Origin: a virus
Direction: 5' to 3' (one strand)
IMG/VR virus record: IMGVR_UViG_3300037104_000191
Coordinates: 1-43,923 of that record
Length of the DNA stretch: 43,923 nucleotides
The position numbers and the translations under genes are program-made. Shown here piece after piece: positions 16,933 to 34,865 of the stretch. The notes under the pieces were generated by a model. The model did no database searches. It saw only the letters and a program-made list of their open reading frames with translations, and was not told where the DNA came from. Numbering within the stretch: the first letter of the stretch is position 1; the number at the start of each line of letters is the position of its first letter.

Positions 16933-16954
16933 AATGATAACAGGGAGGTTCAAA

Positions 16955-17320
16955 ATGCTGAATATCCACGAAGGTCAAAGTGTTGAATCTAGTACGGTCA
17001 TGAAAACTGGACGAATTAATACAAGTCTAGTTGAAGAAGATCAAATTGAATCTTTCTATATCGGATTCCTTGACCGATTGAATGAAGAATACGATAACAT
17101 TAAGTATAATAGAATTGAAAGAATCTCAACAATTAGAGAACTCTTCTATCTACTCGGATATAGAATCTCCGATAAGGAAATTGGATTTAGTGGGGGTGTA
17201 CGAAAAAATCTCCCATCGCTGAGAGATTTTCGTGATAGTATCTTCACCTATATTTCAAGGTTTGATATTGTTACCTTTTTCGAGCGAAATACTCAAGAGA
17301 CTCTGCAAATGCTTCCATGA
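16955..17320 (+). CDS. Hypothetical protein, 121 aa, convergent with next gene
   Basis: The start is ATG 16955, with GGGAGG at 16943-16948. An in-frame extension back to 16886 would run through the capsid terminator and promoter and is rejected. The protein is charged and mostly helical (NEEYDNIKYNRIERISTIRE) with no recognised family. Its last 50 bp overlap the 3' end of the minus-strand gene ending at 17271, and a likely minus-strand terminator lies within its coding sequence. Confidence 0.65.
   Translation: MLNIHEGQSVESSTVMKTGRINTSLVEEDQIESFYIGFLDRLNEEYDNIKYNRIERISTIRELFYLLGYRISDKEIGFSGGVRKNLPSLRDFRDSIFTYISRFDIVTFFERNTQETLQMLP
17205..17230 (-). terminator. Possible minus-strand terminator inside a convergent gene
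   Basis: Read on the minus strand, AAAATCTC and GAGATTTT form an 8-bp stem with a 10-nt loop, followed by further T residues. It lies about 40 bp beyond the stop of the minus-strand gene at 17271. The stem is A/T-rich, so efficiency is uncertain. Confidence 0.4.
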
Positions 17321-18077
17321 AGGCTCTCTGAGATTCATACTTGTAGCTAGTCTGGTAATTATGCGTCACGTCTCCTGGAGTGACACCGTTTCCGAAAATA
17401 GCCCCGCTAGTTCTTAGATTAGAAATATCACTTTCACTCTGAACTAGATTGTCTACAATCTTATCCATAATGTCGATAATGCTATTAGGTCCTAGTAGAT
17501 GGGCCTTATAAGGTTTGATGGTAGCCTGGAAAGGGAAATCATTGTAATAGAACTTTTCAATAGCCTGCTGAAGATGGTTAATTTCTTTCTTGAAATCTTC
17601 AATCGGCTTATTATCGTTCTTCTCTACAATCTGCTTAATGATCAAACTAATAAAGACGACCAGTCTATTACCCTGGGCATTCTTAGCTCCAGCCAAAGCC
17701 TTCTTTAGGATACCATCTTGACTTGGATCGGATAGAAACTTACTAGAAGTGACTATCTTAGCGATATTCGACTTAGCTTCTGGATCTGTTTCATTATGGT
17801 ACTGAGCTGTCAATTGCTTCAGTATGTTTTTGATTTTATCTTCAAATACTATTAGTGCGTTAAAGGCGTCCTTGTCTACTGCACCCTTACGACTTAATTC
17901 ACTAATAGTCTTATCTGCAATTCTATTCAGAGCTGATCCAACTTCCTGGGTTCCTTCTAGGAAAGTTCTACGGGATATGCATTCTAATAGATGACTAGCG
18001 TACCCAATCTTCACTTTAGGCATTCTAGATTCTAGAATTGCTTTAGGAATCATGTCGCCAATATGATATGTCTTCAT
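17271..18077 (-). CDS. Hypothetical late protein, 268 aa
   Basis: This minus-strand gene starts at ATG 18077 with a conventional leader: a TAAATA late promoter on the minus strand (18100-18095) and AGAGGTGA before the ATG. The protein is mostly helical, lysine-rich, without membrane segments or recognisable catalytic motif. The late promoter indicates a structural or assembly role. It is divergent from the neck-protein gene, whose own late promoter lies 12 bp away on the other strand. Confidence 0.75.
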   Translation of the reverse strand: MKTYHIGDMIPKAILESRMPKVKIGYASHLLECISRRTFLEGTQEVGSALNRIADKTISELSRKGAVDKDAFNALIVFEDKIKNILKQLTAQYHNETDPEAKSNIAKIVTSSKFLSDPSQDGILKKALAGAKNAQGNRLVVFISLIIKQIVEKNDNKPIEDFKKEINHLQQAIEKFYYNDFPFQATIKPYKAHLLGPNSIIDIMDKIVDNLVQSESDISNLRTSGAIFGNGVTPGDVTHNYQTSYKYESQRAFMEAFAESLEYFARKR

Positions 18078-18094
18078 TCAATCACCTCTGAGTT

Positions 18095-18100
18095 TATTTA
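18095..18100 (-). promoter_or_regulatory. Minus-strand late-type promoter TAAATA with Shine-Dalgarno leader
   Basis: CTAAATA on the minus strand is followed by a predicted 12-nt leader carrying AGAGGTGA before ATG 18077. It stands back to back with the plus-strand late promoter at 18112. Confidence 0.6.
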
Positions 18101-18111
18101 GGTCAAAGTAC

Positions 18112-22997: not shown

Positions 22998-23011
22998 ACC
23001 TTTTACGCTAA

Positions 23012-24688
23012 TTATTCTTCTTCGACTTCTACTTCTTCTTTAGTATAAGTCAAATCTACACCTTCTAATTCTATACCATTGAATGAGAATGTCTTATCTA
23101 TTATGTGTATTTCCTGTGGATATTCTTCTTCATAGTAGAATTCTTCACGTTCATAGAAATGTCTAGAAAGGTTTGATCGGTATTCAACATCGTGTTTTAC
23201 CCTATTAGAGTAATACGTTTCTTCAATACAGTGGTGTAGATCGAAAATTCTTGCTGTGTTTTTAGTGGAATGTAATCTCAGACTACGTCCAATAGACTGT
23301 AAAATTAGAGTATATGATTTACAAGAAGACCCAAATATGACATTATGAAGGTTCTTCATATTCAATCCGGTTCCGAAAGTTCTATAGGTGGCTACTATAA
23401 TTATTCCAGATCTACCTTCCAGATCCTTTAATATATTTTCGCGCTCTTCCAGGCTGACTTTTCCATGTGCCATTCTAATTTCGAAATCAGGATGTAGAGT
23501 CTTTAGCATTTCTGCCATTTCGTCAACTTCTTTATTTGTGACGAATTTCATTAAGATAAGAGTATTTTCATCTTTTGTTATGATTCCATCTCTTATCATT
23601 GAATGAACAGCGTACTGCGAAGACTTAGTCAATCTAGACAGTTCATATTCTGAGTTTAATGGTATTTTTTTCTTCTTACACAGTTCTATCGTATATTTGT
23701 CATATGGTATTTGTACTTCAATTATACTAGCCTTAGATAGTTCACCCCTATCTATTAATTCTTTAGATGAAATGATTTGTCTAATGTCTCCGAAGTTACC
23801 TATGATTACTTTTTGGTTTAATAAATTTCTAGGTATAGTTCCAGTAAGTCCGTATCTATATTCAGCATTTGAACATGCACTAATGACCTTATTAATTACG
23901 GCATAATCATTCTTAGCCGTATGTAATTCATCTACAATGAGACATTCAAAACGCTTAAAGTATTCTTCAAACGCTTTCTTATCTAATAGAGTACCCATTG
24001 ACTGCCAAGTGCTGATCAATATAGGTTTTCTTATAGCTTCTTTCTTCTCTTTGACAGAAAAATCAGAATGGTACATTCCAACGTATTTGTCTACATCAGT
24101 CCATCCATAGTCGTCTCTAAAATTTCGGAATAACTGATTTACTAAGTTGATATTAGGTACTAGAATTAGAAAATTCATGTCAGATTTTATGATCCGCATG
24201 AAGAATCTAAGTATCATGTATATAGCTAAGCTCTTACCAGCTCCAGTAGCAGCTCTAAATGAGGATCTTTTATAAGCTAGAGATAACTCTAAAATTTTCT
24301 GCTGGTAATCTCTTGGAGTCAATCCAGATACATTACTAATAGCTCTACAGAATGATTGAATTAGTTCAGAATAATCAATGGTTGAAGTGAATGAAGTTAT
24401 TATTTCTGGATCTAATTCTACATTCCATCCAAATTGTCTAAGACTTTTAACAGCCTCTCTAACTAGACCCAATGGAATTAAACTAGGTAGTATTTTATAG
24501 AGCCTTATCTTTCCATCATACTTGGTGAATCGTCTTTTTTTAAACCTAGGGTCAAACATAAACCCTTCAGGTCTTAATGCAAATAGATTATCTAGAGTTA
24601 CATATGGACTTTGCTTGTATGGATCTTCTTCACTTGGACTCCAAATAACCTTTGCATATGAATTGTTTATTTTCTTAAAAATTACCAT
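23012..24688 (-). CDS. uvsW: UvsW-like superfamily 2 DNA/RNA helicase
   Basis: This 558-aa protein has the SF2 helicase motif set: Q-region LTPRDYQQKI, Walker A ATGAGKS (residues 147-153), motif II VDELHTA (about 252-258), motif III LTGTI (about 278-282), and C-terminal VATYRTFGTGLN and QSIGRSLRLH motifs. Length and N-terminal domain agree with T4 UvsW (587 aa in revised annotation), which unwinds branched structures and helps switch replication from origin to recombination mode. It follows uvsY with overlapping stop and start, the same neighbourhood as in T4, so the pair is likely one transcript. Confidence 0.9.
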   Translation of the reverse strand: MVIFKKINNSYAKVIWSPSEEDPYKQSPYVTLDNLFALRPEGFMFDPRFKKRRFTKYDGKIRLYKILPSLIPLGLVREAVKSLRQFGWNVELDPEIITSFTSTIDYSELIQSFCRAISNVSGLTPRDYQQKILELSLAYKRSSFRAATGAGKSLAIYMILRFFMRIIKSDMNFLILVPNINLVNQLFRNFRDDYGWTDVDKYVGMYHSDFSVKEKKEAIRKPILISTWQSMGTLLDKKAFEEYFKRFECLIVDELHTAKNDYAVINKVISACSNAEYRYGLTGTIPRNLLNQKVIIGNFGDIRQIISSKELIDRGELSKASIIEVQIPYDKYTIELCKKKKIPLNSEYELSRLTKSSQYAVHSMIRDGIITKDENTLILMKFVTNKEVDEMAEMLKTLHPDFEIRMAHGKVSLEERENILKDLEGRSGIIIVATYRTFGTGLNMKNLHNVIFGSSCKSYTLILQSIGRSLRLHSTKNTARIFDLHHCIEETYYSNRVKHDVEYRSNLSRHFYEREEFYYEEEYPQEIHIIDKTFSFNGIELEGVDLTYTKEEVEVEEE

Positions 24689-25266
24689 TGTAGCGTGTGC
24701 TTAATTCTCAATATATTTATTGCGTTACCTATTCTATATGACATAGAATCTATTCTAGCCATGGCTTTTTCAATTACTGAGAGAATAGCTTTTACATTAG
24801 CTATTTTCTCTTCCAATTCAATGTGTTCCACATTTATCACAATGAGGTTTCTTATTTCCTTGTCATTTATCAATAATCCATTATGTACATCTGGATTTCT
24901 CTTATATTCTTGTGTAATGGTAGATTCTAAAACTTCCAATTTCTTTTGGTTTAATGATAATGCTTTATTATATGTGTTGTATCTACGTAGCCACTTAGCT
25001 TCAGTTACATTTAATGAAGCATTGAAATTATATAGTAGATCTAAATCTTCAGGTACTGCAGTATCTTCTTCAAATTCAACCATTAAGTTAGTTACAGTTT
25101 CAGTCTGATGCATCTCAAACGTAGCTATGGACGATGTAGAGAATTTAGAGTTCACTGAGTCTGCAATCCCTAAACGAATCTCGTTGTATGAGGCTGGAGC
25201 TTTAAGTTCAGTCTCACTTCTTTCTGATTTTACAGGTCTAACTCTAGTTTTTTTCTGATCATCCAT
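24682..25266 (-). CDS. uvsY: UvsY-like recombination mediator
   Basis: Residues from about 95 onward match the T4 UvsY pattern: EAKWLRRYNTYNKALSLNQK corresponds to YSKWLNKHSSIKKEMLRIEA, followed by a TQEYKRN/DYYSG-like segment, a charged helix, and a C-terminal AMARIDSMSYRIGNAINIL corresponding to ALDAIKSRGFAIKHIQDM. T4 UvsY is 137 aa; this 194-aa version has an N-terminal extension of about 60 residues beginning with a basic stretch. UvsY loads UvsX onto gp32-coated ssDNA, and both partners are encoded in the window. The start is leaderless behind TGC-TAAAAT. Assignment also rests on adjacency to uvsW. Confidence 0.7.
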   Translation of the reverse strand: MDDQKKTRVRPVKSERSETELKAPASYNEIRLGIADSVNSKFSTSSIATFEMHQTETVTNLMVEFEEDTAVPEDLDLLYNFNASLNVTEAKWLRRYNTYNKALSLNQKKLEVLESTITQEYKRNPDVHNGLLINDKEIRNLIVINVEHIELEEKIANVKAILSVIEKAMARIDSMSYRIGNAINILRIKHTLQW

Positions 25267-25272
25267 ATCTAT

Positions 25273-25281
25273 ATTTTAGCA
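25273..25281 (-). promoter_or_regulatory. Minus-strand extended -10 promoter TGC-TAAAAT, leaderless, for uvsY-uvsW
   Basis: On the minus strand TGCTAAAAT ends 6 nt before ATG 25266 with ATAGAT between, so the transcript should begin at the ATG. No convincing -35 was seen. Confidence 0.6.
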
Positions 25282-25343
25282 TTCTTTTTAGATTCATATT
25301 AGAGTTGAGTTCTCTTATGCAACTCCTGCACTGGAGAAAGTAT

Positions 25344-25445
25344 AGTCTTTTTGATTTTTGTTTTAGCTTCATTTTAAAAGACTGTTTTTAGTCTCTTATA
25401 GTCTTTTTGAGCCTGTAATAGACTATTTTTAGACTGTTATAGTCT
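25344..25445. repeat. Cluster of seven AGTCT/AGACT pentamers
   Basis: AGTCT occurs at 25344, 25390, 25400 and 25441 and its complement AGACT at 25379, 25420 and 25431, several with attached T-runs. Two pairs form inverted repeats: 25379-25394 (6-nt spacer) and 25431-25445 (5-nt spacer). Such density is far above chance for a 5-mer. Confidence 0.75.
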
Positions 25446-25534
25446 CTCGCAGGCGCACCCCCTCCCATTCCCCCTAACCCCATTCCCAACATTTTGAGTT
25501 TTGTTGGAAGGTTAGAAGTACTTGTCCCCGCATA

Positions 25535-25558
25535 CGTTAACTTTAAACTCAGTTAACG
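25535..25558. repeat. Inverted repeat CGTTAAC/GTTAACG
   Basis: Perfect 7-bp arms separated by 10 bp, in the non-coding region. It could be an operator or hairpin. Confidence 0.6.
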
Positions 25559-25791
25559 CACCCGTTCCCCTCCGAAGACTCACTAGATGGGTTTTACCCT
25601 TGGGCCTGTCTCTTCCCTTACATCCAGCGCACTAGCATTCCCACCGAAAAAATCAATAGACTTTTTCACTGCAATGGTCTTCGTAATGTCGCATGGCCTG
25701 CCTCATCGGCTATGGTTTCCCCTGCTCCATGCAACCCAGGCTTTCACCTAGTGGGTATGTTAGCACATTTCATCTACATACTGTCTGGGAG

Positions 25792-25800
25792 TGCTACAAT
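25792..25800 (+). promoter_or_regulatory. Extended -10 promoter TGC-TACAAT
   Basis: TGCTACAAT precedes a short leader with AAAGGAG at 25807-25813 and ATG 25819. The same motif occurs before the DNA polymerase gene. No good -35 was found. Confidence 0.6.
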
Positions 25801-25818
25801 TACAGTAAAGGAGTACAC

Positions 25819-28167
25819 ATGGTAGACGTAGAAGAGCAGGTTGTTGAACTCGCTAAGGACGGAAAAACAGTAAATCACATCTCCGAAATTACGGGTTTAA
25901 CTAGAACTCAAATAGCTAATGTTCTAATTGAATATATTGGAACTGCAGATAATACTGAAAAATGTGAAACCACTAAGCATTCTAGTTTTTCCATTATGGA
26001 AGAGAATACTAGTGATAAGAATTCAAGAGAAATCACATTTAAGTATGTTGGTCATCAAAAGAGCTTGGAAGAATTGCTCGCTGAATTGAAAATCGATACT
26101 GAAGTATGGGAAGTTGCAAATGTAACCTATAACGAGTGGGATGGAATGAGGCCCAATGATCAGGGTCTAATTAAGCTCCATCAAATCAAGGTTTCATTCA
26201 GAAGAATCAAACTAGTCACGAACTATGAAATTCCCACTCCAATAAACATTACTTTGAAGTCTTCGAAGAGATTCGATAAGGCTCATAGTCGTGACAATGG
26301 AATTAAGACTGCAGTTATTCTACCTGATATGCAGGTAGGGTTTAAGCGCAACTTGATAACTGGTGAATTGACTTCTCTTCATGACAGACGAGCACTAGAC
26401 GTAGCTCTTCAAATTGCTAGATATGTACGACCAGATCGTATTGTTCTACTTGGAGACAACCTAGACCTTCCTCAAGAATCTAAGTATCCTACTGGACCTG
26501 AATTCTATTTCACTACTCAGGCTGCAGCTGTTGAATTGTCTTGGTGGTTGGCTCAGTTGAGAGATATTGATCCTGATATTGAGATTGACTATATTGCAGG
26601 AAATCATGATTGTTTTTCTGAAGACACTCAAATATTAACAGAAAAAGGATGGCTTGATTATTTCGAAGTTGATAAAGAAACTAAAATTGCAACATTCAAT
26701 AAAGAAACTAAAAGTATAGAATTTCAAAATTATATTGAAGCTCAGACATATTCATATAAAGGTGAAATGTATAATATACAGAACAATGCATGTGATTTAT
26801 TGATAACACCAAACCATAGAGTTTATTGGGCTGATAGAAATTCAAAGAATGAATTTGAAATGAGTGAAATTTCAGATGTTAATTTGGTTAATACTAGAAA
26901 GGTTCAGTATTGTTCTGGCATTAATAGTAAATCTGATTTGATTGATATTTCTGATGATATGATTAAGTTAATTGCTTGGATTATAACAGATGGATCAACT
27001 TCAATAAAAGATAAAACTATTAAATTATATCAGAGAACTGAAAAAATACATTTAATCAGAGATATTTTAGATCGGCTTGGAATAACATACACCTTCAACA
27101 CTAGAATAAGAGATATTAAATCAATATGTGGAGTTGAATTAAAAAATCCAAGTAAAGAACAATGTATTATCACAATAAACAAGAAAAATTCAGAAATTAT
27201 ATATAAGTATATAGACGATAAGTATACTATACCTGAATGGGTATATGATTTGTCAGAAAGACAAGTTGATATTTTTATTAATTCAATGGTTGATGGTGAC
27301 GGTAGTAGAAAAAAAGATAGTAAATCTGGATTGATGTTATACGGAGTTAAAACTATATTAGATCAAGTTCAGCATTTATTGACATTAAATGGATATAGGA
27401 CAAGCATATATACCTATAGAAACTCACAATATAAATTGAATATTACAAAAAATAATACAATTAGTTTAGATAGGATAGTTAACCATGTTAATAAAGTAGA
27501 CTATATTGGTATTATATGGGATTTTACAGTACCTAATGATACGCTAGTTGTTCGTAGGAATGGTAAAGTTTCTATTACTGGTAACTGTAGAGCCGAAAAG
27601 GTTCTCATGCAGAATGCGATCTCAGCATATGGTCTGCGTTCAACTGATGATCTCAATGGACCTCCATTGCTATCTGTTCAGAAGTTGCTAGGTTTGGATA
27701 AGCTAGGTATTACCTATCATCCTGATTACCCGCATGGTAAGGTTGTATTGAATGACAACCTAGTCTGTATTCACGGTGAAATTGCAAGAAGTGAATCAGG
27801 TGCTACTGTTTCAGCTGTAGTCAAGGATACTAGAGTCTCTGTAATCCAAGGTCACATTCATCGCTATGAAGTGGCCACAAAGACGCTATGGGGTGCCAAC
27901 GACAAGGCTTACATGTACACCGCAGCTTCGTTCGGTTGCCTATGTAAGATCGACCCAGGCGCAGTCCCAGGGGTGAAGGCATACCAGAACTGGCAGCAGG
28001 GTATGGGTATTGTCTACTATGAGGATTCAGGTCTTCAGCAGTTTAGGCAGGAATTCATTCCTATCATCGACGGTAGAGCAATTCTCCAAAGTGAAATATT
28101 TGAAGCATCTGATGAGTCTGACATCATCGAAGCTATCGAATACGAAACTAACTTCAAGGTGAGCTAA
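25819..28167 (+). CDS. Calcineurin-like metallophosphoesterase interrupted by an intein
   Basis: ATG 25819 follows AAAGGAG by 5 nt and gives a 782-aa precursor. Residues 1-40 look like a helix-turn-helix (KTVNHISEITGLTRTQIANV). The phosphoesterase motifs follow: LPDMQVGF (motif I, with Gln where His is usual), LLGDNLDLP, AGNHD, then after the intein VCIHGE and VIQGHIHR. The GNHD motif is split after its Asp by a 325-aa intein (residues 265-589). Splicing would join GNHD to CRAEKVL and give a 457-aa enzyme. Related phosphoesterases are, from memory, common in actinobacteriophages. Substrate is unknown; a nuclease or nucleotide phosphoesterase role is possible. It is separate from the gp47 nuclease encoded downstream. 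Confidence 0.88.
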   Translation: MVDVEEQVVELAKDGKTVNHISEITGLTRTQIANVLIEYIGTADNTEKCETTKHSSFSIMEENTSDKNSREITFKYVGHQKSLEELLAELKIDTEVWEVANVTYNEWDGMRPNDQGLIKLHQIKVSFRRIKLVTNYEIPTPINITLKSSKRFDKAHSRDNGIKTAVILPDMQVGFKRNLITGELTSLHDRRALDVALQIARYVRPDRIVLLGDNLDLPQESKYPTGPEFYFTTQAAAVELSWWLAQLRDIDPDIEIDYIAGNHDCFSEDTQILTEKGWLDYFEVDKETKIATFNKETKSIEFQNYIEAQTYSYKGEMYNIQNNACDLLITPNHRVYWADRNSKNEFEMSEISDVNLVNTRKVQYCSGINSKSDLIDISDDMIKLIAWIITDGSTSIKDKTIKLYQRTEKIHLIRDILDRLGITYTFNTRIRDIKSICGVELKNPSKEQCIITINKKNSEIIYKYIDDKYTIPEWVYDLSERQVDIFINSMVDGDGSRKKDSKSGLMLYGVKTILDQVQHLLTLNGYRTSIYTYRNSQYKLNITKNNTISLDRIVNHVNKVDYIGIIWDFTVPNDTLVVRRNGKVSITGNCRAEKVLMQNAISAYGLRSTDDLNGPPLLSVQKLLGLDKLGITYHPDYPHGKVVLNDNLVCIHGEIARSESGATVSAVVKDTRVSVIQGHIHRYEVATKTLWGANDKAYMYTAASFGCLCKIDPGAVPGVKAYQNWQQGMGIVYYEDSGLQQFRQEFIPIIDGRAILQSEIFEASDESDIIEAIEYETNFKVS
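26611..27585 (+). mobile_element. Intein with LAGLIDADG-type homing endonuclease
   Basis: The insertion begins with Cys in CFSEDTQILTEKGW (block A), has block B LLITPNHRVYW, two dodecapeptide-type motifs (LIAWIITDGS near intein residue 120 and INSMVDGDGS near 223) and a C-terminal IIWDFTVPNDTLVV block F, ending SITGN before Cys+1. The penultimate His typical of inteins is Gly, which is tolerated in some known inteins but may slow Asn cyclisation. It is 325 aa, a normal full-size intein. It is visibly more A/T-rich than the flanking exteins, consistent with lateral arrival by homing. Confidence 0.93.
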
Positions 28168-33098: not shown

Positions 33099-33751
33099 TG
33101 TTATTCGTAACTAAAAAAGATTACTACTATAGTGAATTAACATCTTCACCTAAAGTATATATTGACTTAGATGGAACACTTTGTGATTTCTTCAGATATT
33201 TTGCTCAAGTAAACTATTTCGATATGCGCGAAAAAGGTATTTCAATATCTGAAATATCACCTGACTATTATAGGCGCAAATCAAAAATAAGAAAATATAT
33301 ACACAAGCGAATAGCTAATCAGAAAATTGATTATTGGGCTCGCGCCCCAAAGACTAAATGTTTTGATATACTATGGAAGGGTTTACGCCAGTTAAAACCA
33401 TATGTGATAACAGGTCTTATTGAAGGTGACACTGCGATGGAGATGGGTAAACTAAAATGGTGTAGAAAAAAGAGTCACCTTGGATTCTTAAATCACGACC
33501 TACATCGGTTATTAGCGAATATCAATAGGGTTGAATATGCAAACAACCGAGGATGTCCTAATATACTGATCGATGATGACGCTGAGAACTGTAGACAGTG
33601 GGAAGAAGCGGGAGGGATCTCATATTTCTACGTTGACAATCCATTTGTTGTGGATCGAATAGTATCTGAAGTTAGAAACGATATTGTAAGACACGGAAAC
33701 ATTGATTTCATGCTCACTTGGAATAAGTCATTGGGTAAGTACGTCTTCTAG
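33098..33751 (+). CDS. HAD-superfamily phosphatase, 5'(3')-deoxyribonucleotidase-like
   Basis: This 217-aa protein has HAD motif I YIDLDGTLCDF (nucleophile Asp22, Asp24), motif II YVITG (Thr) and motif IV PNILIDDDAENCRQWEEAGG, the arrangement of 5'(3')-deoxyribonucleotidases. It would dephosphorylate nucleoside monophosphates or a related metabolite. ATG 33098 overlaps the gp55 stop (TAATG). The substrate cannot be read from sequence; a nearby glycosyltransferase raises the idea of modified-nucleotide metabolism, but that is inference. Confidence 0.78.
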   Translation: MLFVTKKDYYYSELTSSPKVYIDLDGTLCDFFRYFAQVNYFDMREKGISISEISPDYYRRKSKIRKYIHKRIANQKIDYWARAPKTKCFDILWKGLRQLKPYVITGLIEGDTAMEMGKLKWCRKKSHLGFLNHDLHRLLANINRVEYANNRGCPNILIDDDAENCRQWEEAGGISYFYVDNPFVVDRIVSEVRNDIVRHGNIDFMLTWNKSLGKYVF

Positions 33752-33754
33752 ACG

Positions 33755-33760
33755 CTATCA
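33755..33760 (+). promoter_or_regulatory. Candidate -10 TATCAT, leaderless, for gp47
   Basis: TATCAT ends 7 nt before ATG 33768, just after the HAD stop codon. There is no ribosome-binding site and no full TGN extension, so this is the weakest of the host-type leaderless candidates. Confidence 0.4.
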
Positions 33761-33767
33761 TACAAGC

Positions 33768-34865
33768 ATGACCACATTAGCCGTTGTAGGTGACCTTCAC
33801 CTCGGAATAGCACCAAATAATTCACTAAAGTTCGAAGTACTCTTAGAGTCTCAAATTAGTTTTTTCCGGGAATGCTTAATTCCAGAACTTCGTGCTCGCG
33901 GAATAAAGACTGTTATATTTACGGGTGATCTATATGATCAACGCAGAAGAGTTGATAGTAAAATAACTCAATTCGTAGAAGGCTTGTTTGAAAAAGAATT
34001 AGCTGAATTCGAATGTATCGTCTTACAAGGTAACCACGACACGTACTACAAGGACGACCTTGCAGTAACTTCACTTTCTAATATATGGTCTAAGTCAAAC
34101 GTACAGGCAATAACAAAGATCACACCTAAGACTATATTAGGTAAGAGGTTTTTATTTGTGCCCTGGCTAACAACGGCATTAGAACAGAGCTTCATTGAAA
34201 ATGTAAGTAAGGTTTCTGGTAAATTCGATTACCTAGTTGGCCACTTCGAAACTTTAGGATTTCAATACGAAGCTGGCAACATAAGCACAATTGGATTGGA
34301 TCCTGAATTATTCTATACTAATTTCAAGAATACATTATCTGGACACTTTCATACTCAATCGTATAAAGAAGTGAACGGAAATAGTATACATTATGTTGGA
34401 ACCCCATTTCAGCTAACATTTGGAGATATTGGGGAAACTAAGGGATTCATTGTTTTGGATATTGAAACAAATAAAAGAGAATTCATCGAGAACACAGTAT
34501 CTAGTAAGTTTGTTAGGTTCTCAGGACGGGCTGAATTATCTAAGTATGAAACATTTAAGAGATGCTTCGTTGAATTAGAATATCCTGAAGGTACCAGCGA
34601 TGAAGAATTGTTCATTATAGAAAAGGAAGTATTGGCTAAGGAGCCTATTTCATATAAAGCATATCTAAAGGTCGCTAAAAATATAGAAGATGTGATTTCA
34701 GATAAGACACCTGAAGAGGTCAAGGTTTTCGAAGACATGTCGGTGGCAATTAATAGCGAAAATATGGAATCAATGACGAAAGTATTTTTGGAAGCGCAGC
34801 CATATGAAGACCCTGAGATGGTTTTGGAGTTGATTGTAGATATTAGAGCCAAGATAACTGGATAG
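33768..34865 (+). CDS. 47: Recombination endonuclease subunit gp47, SbcD/Mre11-like nuclease
   Basis: The start is ATG 33768, since the mature family N-terminus (MTTLAVVGDLHLG) begins there; an upstream in-frame ATG at 33702 lies inside the HAD gene. Metallophosphoesterase motifs are VGDLHLG (residues 7-13), TGDLYD (52-57), GNHD (88-91) and SGHFHTQ (about 192). The 365-aa length agrees with T4 gp47 (339 aa). It partners gp46 in end resection. There is no Shine-Dalgarno sequence; a TATCAT -10 lies 7 nt upstream, suggesting a leaderless transcript. Confidence 0.93.
   Translation: MTTLAVVGDLHLGIAPNNSLKFEVLLESQISFFRECLIPELRARGIKTVIFTGDLYDQRRRVDSKITQFVEGLFEKELAEFECIVLQGNHDTYYKDDLAVTSLSNIWSKSNVQAITKITPKTILGKRFLFVPWLTTALEQSFIENVSKVSGKFDYLVGHFETLGFQYEAGNISTIGLDPELFYTNFKNTLSGHFHTQSYKEVNGNSIHYVGTPFQLTFGDIGETKGFIVLDIETNKREFIENTVSSKFVRFSGRAELSKYETFKRCFVELEYPEGTSDEELFIIEKEVLAKEPISYKAYLKVAKNIEDVISDKTPEEVKVFEDMSVAINSENMESMTKVFLEAQPYEDPEMVLELIVDIRAKITG

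Follow-up and report, generated by a model that had tools for sequence, protein, structure and literature searches.

Insertion of an intein at the GNHD motif of a phage phosphoesterase

A phosphoesterase gene in a 43,923-nucleotide stretch of viral DNA (IMG/VR record IMGVR_UViG_3300037104_000191, here called the window) carries 325 additional codons directly behind the codons of its catalytic GNHD motif. We asked what this segment is, how it came to lie there, and what it means for the enzyme. As set out below, it is very probably a mobile class 1 intein with a LAGLIDADG homing endonuclease domain, placed after the GNHD codons of a metallophosphoesterase gene of a T4-like phage, that would both splice and home.

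The open reading frame lies on the plus strand, with its ATG at 25819 and a stop codon ending at 28167 (coding region 25819-28164); a GGAG ribosome site precedes this ATG, and an alternative ATG is found upstream at 25693. Within it, the intein occupies positions 26611-27585 (plus strand, 975 nt), in frame between GNHD and CRAEK. Translation of the frame placed both ends exactly where the initial annotation had put them: the GNHD codons end at 26610, Cys1 is encoded by 26611-26613, Gly324-Asn325 end at 27585, and the Cys at position +1 corresponds to 27586-27588. Translation and profiles identify an N-extein of 264 aa (25819-26610, plus strand) with an HTH-like N-terminus, motif I DMQ, motif II GDNLD and, at its end, motif III GNHD. 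The C-extein of 193 aa (27586-28164, plus strand) starts with the +1 nucleophile Cys and has the metal-ligand motifs IHGE and GHIH. Removal of the intein joins ...YIAGNHD to CRAEKV... in a protein of 457 aa.

A single-protein scan of IMG/VR identified an uninterrupted phosphoesterase, 81% identical, on a 79.9-kb contig of a sister phage (L003, genome L003/G001). When the window was compared with this contig by blastn, the aligned blocks 23009-26610 and 27589-28148 abutted except for the +1 codon, and the sister protein reads GNHD-LRAEK at the junction. The remaining window is collinear with the sister contig at 67-77% nucleotide identity, and a search of that contig for an intein of the window type found none. 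Hence, the segment is an extra piece in one phage that is absent from its relative, and because the collinear sister phage lacks exactly 26611-27585 it is an insertion. Collinearity also breaks at window positions 16933-18109, a region with a 268-aa minus-strand reading frame (17271-18077) without a PHROG match. A profile search found no second intein in the window. All 80 homologues of the host protein were uninterrupted. The initial annotation had held that homologues without continuity across GNHD-CRAEK would speak against an intein; the sister protein and the 80 relatives are all continuous across the GNHD junction. With a natural empty site in a sister phage, homing and splicing are both directly testable.

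Anatomy and relatives of the intein

The segment begins with CFSEDTQILTEKGW and ends with RRNGKVSITGN, followed by Cys. Conservation of its residues was counted in an alignment (A3) of 31 inteins, and all elements named here lie on the plus strand. Splicing block A, CFSEDTQILTEKGW (26611-26652), contains Cys1, the presumed first nucleophile, which is present in all 31 aligned relatives. In block B (26788-26832), with the sequence TPNH (Thr66, His69), His69 is found in 30 of the 31 and Thr or Ser at position 66 in every one. Block G, RNGKVSITGN (27556-27585), closes with the penultimate Gly324 and the terminal Asn325, both conserved in 31/31. The residues expected of a class 1 intein (Cys1, TxxH of block B, terminal Asn325 and Cys at +1) are thus complete; a penultimate His, usual in this class and not strictly required, is replaced by Gly324. 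Block F, IGIIWDFTVPNDTLVVR (27505-27555), has Asp304 in place of the Cys present in 28/31 family members, and this counts against our explanation. The first LAGLIDADG motif, LIAWIITDG (residues 120-128; 26968-26994), carries the acidic Asp127 (Asp or Glu in 31/31), and the second, FINSMVDGDG (residues 222-231; 27274-27303), carries Asp230 (Asp in 31/31) and is covered by the Pfam LAGLIDADG_3 match, so that both motifs and both catalytic acids of a LAGLIDADG endonuclease are in place. Profiles, the alignment, a structural model and the empty site of the sister phage all contribute to this class 1 layout with an endonuclease domain, and together with the uninterrupted homologues they bear out the earlier description of a complete intein with two LAGLIDADG-type motifs adjoining GNHD.

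The search with intein profiles that the initial annotation had proposed succeeded for the endonuclease, with LAGLIDADG_3 scoring 28.9 bits against a cut-off of 22.5. It fell short for the splicing domain, with Pfam Intein_splicing at 27.7 bits (E 2.7e-6; cut-off 35.8) and the NCBI intein model TIGR01445 at 18.9 bits (cut-off 24.5). A scan of IMG/VR with the single intein sequence found no relative, and the relatives described here came from alignment-based scans. In phage genomes, tblastn matched the intein in 402 records and several host genes, with a best E value of 5e-29. At least 80% of the intein was matched at one place in 383 phage records; since, in addition, the sister phage lacks exactly this segment, the intein is not a chance match. 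AlphaFold2, run on the 31-intein alignment, predicted the structure with a pLDDT of 94.2 and a pTM of 0.91. In Foldseek searches the top PDB matches of this model were TliVMA, PhoVMA, PI-PfuI and PI-SceI (E 6.5e-16 to 1e-11), and the folds of I-DmoI and I-SceI were matched as well, so that the predicted model has the Hint fold of inteins at a best E value of 6.5e-16.

Splicing and mobility

By homology, the precursor would splice by itself. Cys1 would form a thioester, Cys+1 would receive the N-extein, Asn325 would cyclise beside Gly324, and the joined 457-aa phosphoesterase would regain its metal site. The free intein would then cut empty GNHD-coding alleles in co-infecting phages, and repair would copy the intein into them.

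The base composition bears on this second half of the scheme. The intein has a GC content of 26.5% (16.9% at third codon positions), compared with 38.0% and 45.4% in the two extein halves and 37.6% in the window, which agrees with the earlier remark that it is more A/T-rich than its host gene. No other 975-bp stretch of the window is as poor in GC, and among those that do not overlap the intein the minimum is 31.0%. Such a low GC content is consistent with arrival from elsewhere. Alternatively, the intein may splice while its endonuclease is dead, and be kept by vertical descent. No close copies turned up elsewhere, the nearest relatives reaching 39% identity, and an insertion that is rare or old would be expected to look like this. 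We nevertheless consider this unlikely, as both catalytic acids and the entire LAGLIDADG domain are kept, the domain is predicted at high confidence, and horizontal arrival is suggested by a GC content far under that of the host gene and by the lack of the intein in the sister phage.

Mobile or not, the intein places 325 residues between the Asn and His ligands in GNHD and the His ligands that follow in IHGE and GHIH, and since it does so it is reasonable to infer that the precursor enzyme would be inactive until spliced. The initial annotation had recognized correctly that the penultimate residue is Gly and not His, and had proposed that this makes splicing slow or conditional. The proposal is not supported. 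Among 137 relatives with intact ends, 131 have Gly at this position (56 from viruses and 75 from cellular genomes) and none has His; the count comes from two scans whose search patterns left the penultimate residue open. Another sample gave Gly in 79/79 and is not our main figure, as one of its search patterns contained GN. In the RDF phosphoesterase gp51 of mycobacteriophage Bethlehem, the intein with its native Gly is completely spliced already at time zero, and the mutant G316H arrives at about 50% splicing only after more than 5 h (PMC5050341). Gly before the last Asn is therefore normal in this intein family and no sign of slow splicing, which corrects a common inference.

These data also weigh on the view that the intein is a post-translational switch, in which slow or condition-dependent splicing (responding to redox state, temperature or metal) would free the phosphoesterase only when wanted. 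The position of the intein in the catalytic centre, between metal-ligand motifs, fits such a role, and a regulatory role has been suggested for inteins that lie in active sites (PMC5050341). Cys1, Cys61 and Cys+1, among others, could allow redox trapping, and the RDF intein carrying G316H gave a disulfide-bonded precursor (PMC5050341). However, the native RDF intein shows that a penultimate Gly goes with full splicing, and homing to conserved DNA alone accounts for an insertion in the active site, which makes a switch quite improbable. The scores below the cut-offs of the curated intein models would also suit a decayed domain that no longer splices, with the phosphoesterase lost in this phage, but the frame is open throughout, no splicing residue has been lost, and the exteins, also intact, share 81% identity with the sister protein, so this view is hardly credible. 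We therefore retain the self-splicing, mobile intein as our explanation.

The host protein and its phage

The joined exteins matched two PHROG families of metallo-phosphoesterases, phrog_20266 (E 4.8e-48) and phrog_221 (E 5.2e-32). The metal-ligand residues D170, GD212-213/D216, GNH261-263, H327 and GHxH353-356 are invariant in 17 relatives and follow the calcineurin-like pattern (DxH, GDx2D, GNH[DE], H, GHxH), whereas motif I reads DxQ instead of DxH. Pfam Metallophos matched 14 of the 17 relatives; the window protein itself gave a weak match, to Metallophos_2 (E 0.004). The uninterrupted sister protein was modelled with middling confidence (pLDDT 76.7), its best hits in a fold search of the PDB were unrelated proteins (E 5e-3), and a profile search of PDB sequences gave no credible match. 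For this reason, we base the enzyme assignment on motifs and family profiles.

The neighbouring genes are T4-like and encode a UvsY-like mediator, SbcC-like and SbcD-like subunits, a helicase, portal, head protease and major head protein, as well as a late sigma factor, DNA polymerase and UvsX-like and DnaB-like proteins. The T4-like core gene set, including the gp46/gp47-like genes, spans window positions 11796-42831, and the phage is AT-rich. The SbcD/gp47-like protein (33702-34865) is a second metallophosphoesterase with a GNHD motif of its own (GNHDTYY) and has no intein. Among named records, phages of Clavibacter and Microbacterium have the proteins closest to the phosphoesterase of the window.

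We also considered whether the host protein is a recombination directionality factor, as are the mycobacteriophage proteins discussed below. Profile searches of the window gave no match to the Recombinase family, and neither the window nor the sister contig, both of them fragments that may be incomplete, matched Phage_integrase or Resolvase. Because no integrase is detectable in these fragments, we rejected this function; such a role is unlikely here. In cluster A mycobacteriophages, Bxb1 Gp47 serves as a directionality factor and lacks phosphoesterase activity, while A10ZJ24 Gp48 is active as a phosphodiesterase and disrupts the DNA of the host (PMC12287305). The protein of the window is probably a phage phosphoesterase or phosphodiesterase, and since its cluster A relatives differ in role in this way, by analogy a part in DNA metabolism or host takeover is plausible.

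The residue following the insertion site

Position +1, which follows GNH[DE], is usually occupied by Glu, Lys or Leu in the 80 uninterrupted relatives, less often by Thr, Ala, Ile or Arg, and in none of them (0/80) by Cys or Ser. Cys stands here in the occupied allele of the window and Ser in those of Corvo and L103, and Leu is found in the close empty alleles of both lineages (L003 for the window; STLscum and Michley for the mycobacteriophages). As Cys or Ser is seen in these occupied alleles and in none of the sampled empty ones, the close ones having Leu, the +1 nucleophile goes along with the intein, whether through co-conversion or through selection, and would remain in the mature enzyme. 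The +1 Cys would then be a trace left by the intein on the mature enzyme.

Related inteins at other motifs and in other proteins

Related inteins are inserted at further metallophosphoesterase motifs: before GHxH (L106, L125), at the equivalent SHVH (L107, L192), inside GH|TH (L199, L200, L204), after GHIH (L202) and at GDY| (L244). Family profiles back the metallophosphoesterase assignment of the host proteins in L103, L105, L106, L125, L192, L197, L199, L202 and L244; the scan, which left out L200, gave no family match for L107 and L204. On the larger tree, inteins hosted by phosphoesterases required 7 label changes, compared with 16.5 after shuffling, and none of 500 shuffles was as low. 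A single clade of all phosphoesterase inteins was found in no bootstrap tree (p-AU 0.08), and the tree has a weak backbone with Corvo on a long branch. These inteins are loosely clustered and not a proven clade. It is possible, though doubtful, that an intein lineage specialised on metallophosphoesterases has moved among GD, GNH, GNHD and the sites before, inside (GH|xH) and after GHxH in unrelated phosphoesterase families of phages, the intein of the window being one of them. If so, target choice would follow the chemistry of the protein family or related DNA motifs and not one fixed site. That related inteins are spread over several catalytic motifs adds a little, in a form open to checking, to what is known of how inteins reach new sites.

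The scans also returned relatives in other proteins. An intein missing from the annotation (...GDAH|CYSGDT...VCGN|CNNAKAY) lies in a polymerase-like protein of the Escherichia phage EPFV3 (PV435126.1; L018:488-3886), which is annotated as hypothetical. In each of L109 and L143, one reading frame has two full-length profile matches and thus a pair of inteins of this family. Most of the cellular relatives, from GTDB genomes (L249-L328), occupy one site, PTRVGFQ|C...TGN|TPFTN, in a protein that we take to be an anaerobic ribonucleotide reductase; they do so in many candidate-phylum bacteria and archaea.

Comparison with known inteins

Inteins beside this motif were published in 2016 for mycobacteriophage RDF phosphoesterases (PMC5050341), which reduces the novelty that the initial annotation had implied; Kelley et al. 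are cited for same-site inteins, and a 2025 announcement reports more (PMC12613952). The inteins of cluster A1 mycobacteriophages (Bethlehem gp51, Corvo gp52, Switzer gp53) are class 1 and share the insertion point GNHD|, read directly from the Corvo and Switzer sequences (GNHD|CSWTN...TGN|SRARDY, a position identical to ours) and taken from PMC5050341 for Bethlehem. They are similar in size (317 aa compared with 325 aa in the window) and likewise have two LAGLIDADG motifs, a penultimate Gly, and Leu at +1 in the empty alleles. The endonuclease of the Bethlehem gp51 intein is toxic and hence active (PMC5050341). In contrast, they are only about 28% identical to the window intein, although the closest characterised intein is among them, which counts against our explanation. 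They have Ser and not Cys at +1, and their host protein, a cluster A phosphoesterase of the Bxb1 gp47/RDF type, is no more than a distant relative of the phrog_20266 protein of the window.

The closest relatives of the window intein are those of the IMG/VR contigs L103 and L104 (39% and 37% identical), which occupy the same site (NHD|C..TGN|S) but lie in a phrog_221 phosphoesterase, of another family and another phage, and have Ser at +1 where the window has Cys. The window intein groups with these two at 98/94 in the larger tree, followed by L105, and at 97/94 in the first tree; a smaller tree places a long-branch row within the group, at weak support. A single clade of the same-site inteins (window, L103/L104, Corvo and L114) was absent from the best tree and was not rejected (p-AU 0.35). 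The inteins of the Rheinheimera phage barba phosphatase and of L105 lie beside the same metallophosphoesterase motif and have a penultimate Gly, but are inserted one residue earlier (GNH|C) and therefore at a different point. PI-SceI, PI-PfuI and TliVMA share the Hint and LAGLIDADG architecture and fold, and differ in being larger, in their host genes and in sequence (8-13% identity).

Overall, the insertion site is already known from the mycobacteriophage RDF phosphoesterases, and the intein of the window, genuine and well preserved, is mostly ordinary. New are the occupation of GNHD in a second phosphoesterase family, whose phage is T4-like and has no detectable integrase; the +1 Cys at a position where 80 uninterrupted relatives have neither Cys nor Ser; and related inteins at several metal-ligand motifs. 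An experimentally known site, the GNHD of the RDF phosphoesterase, is thereby extended to a second family in a T4-like phage.
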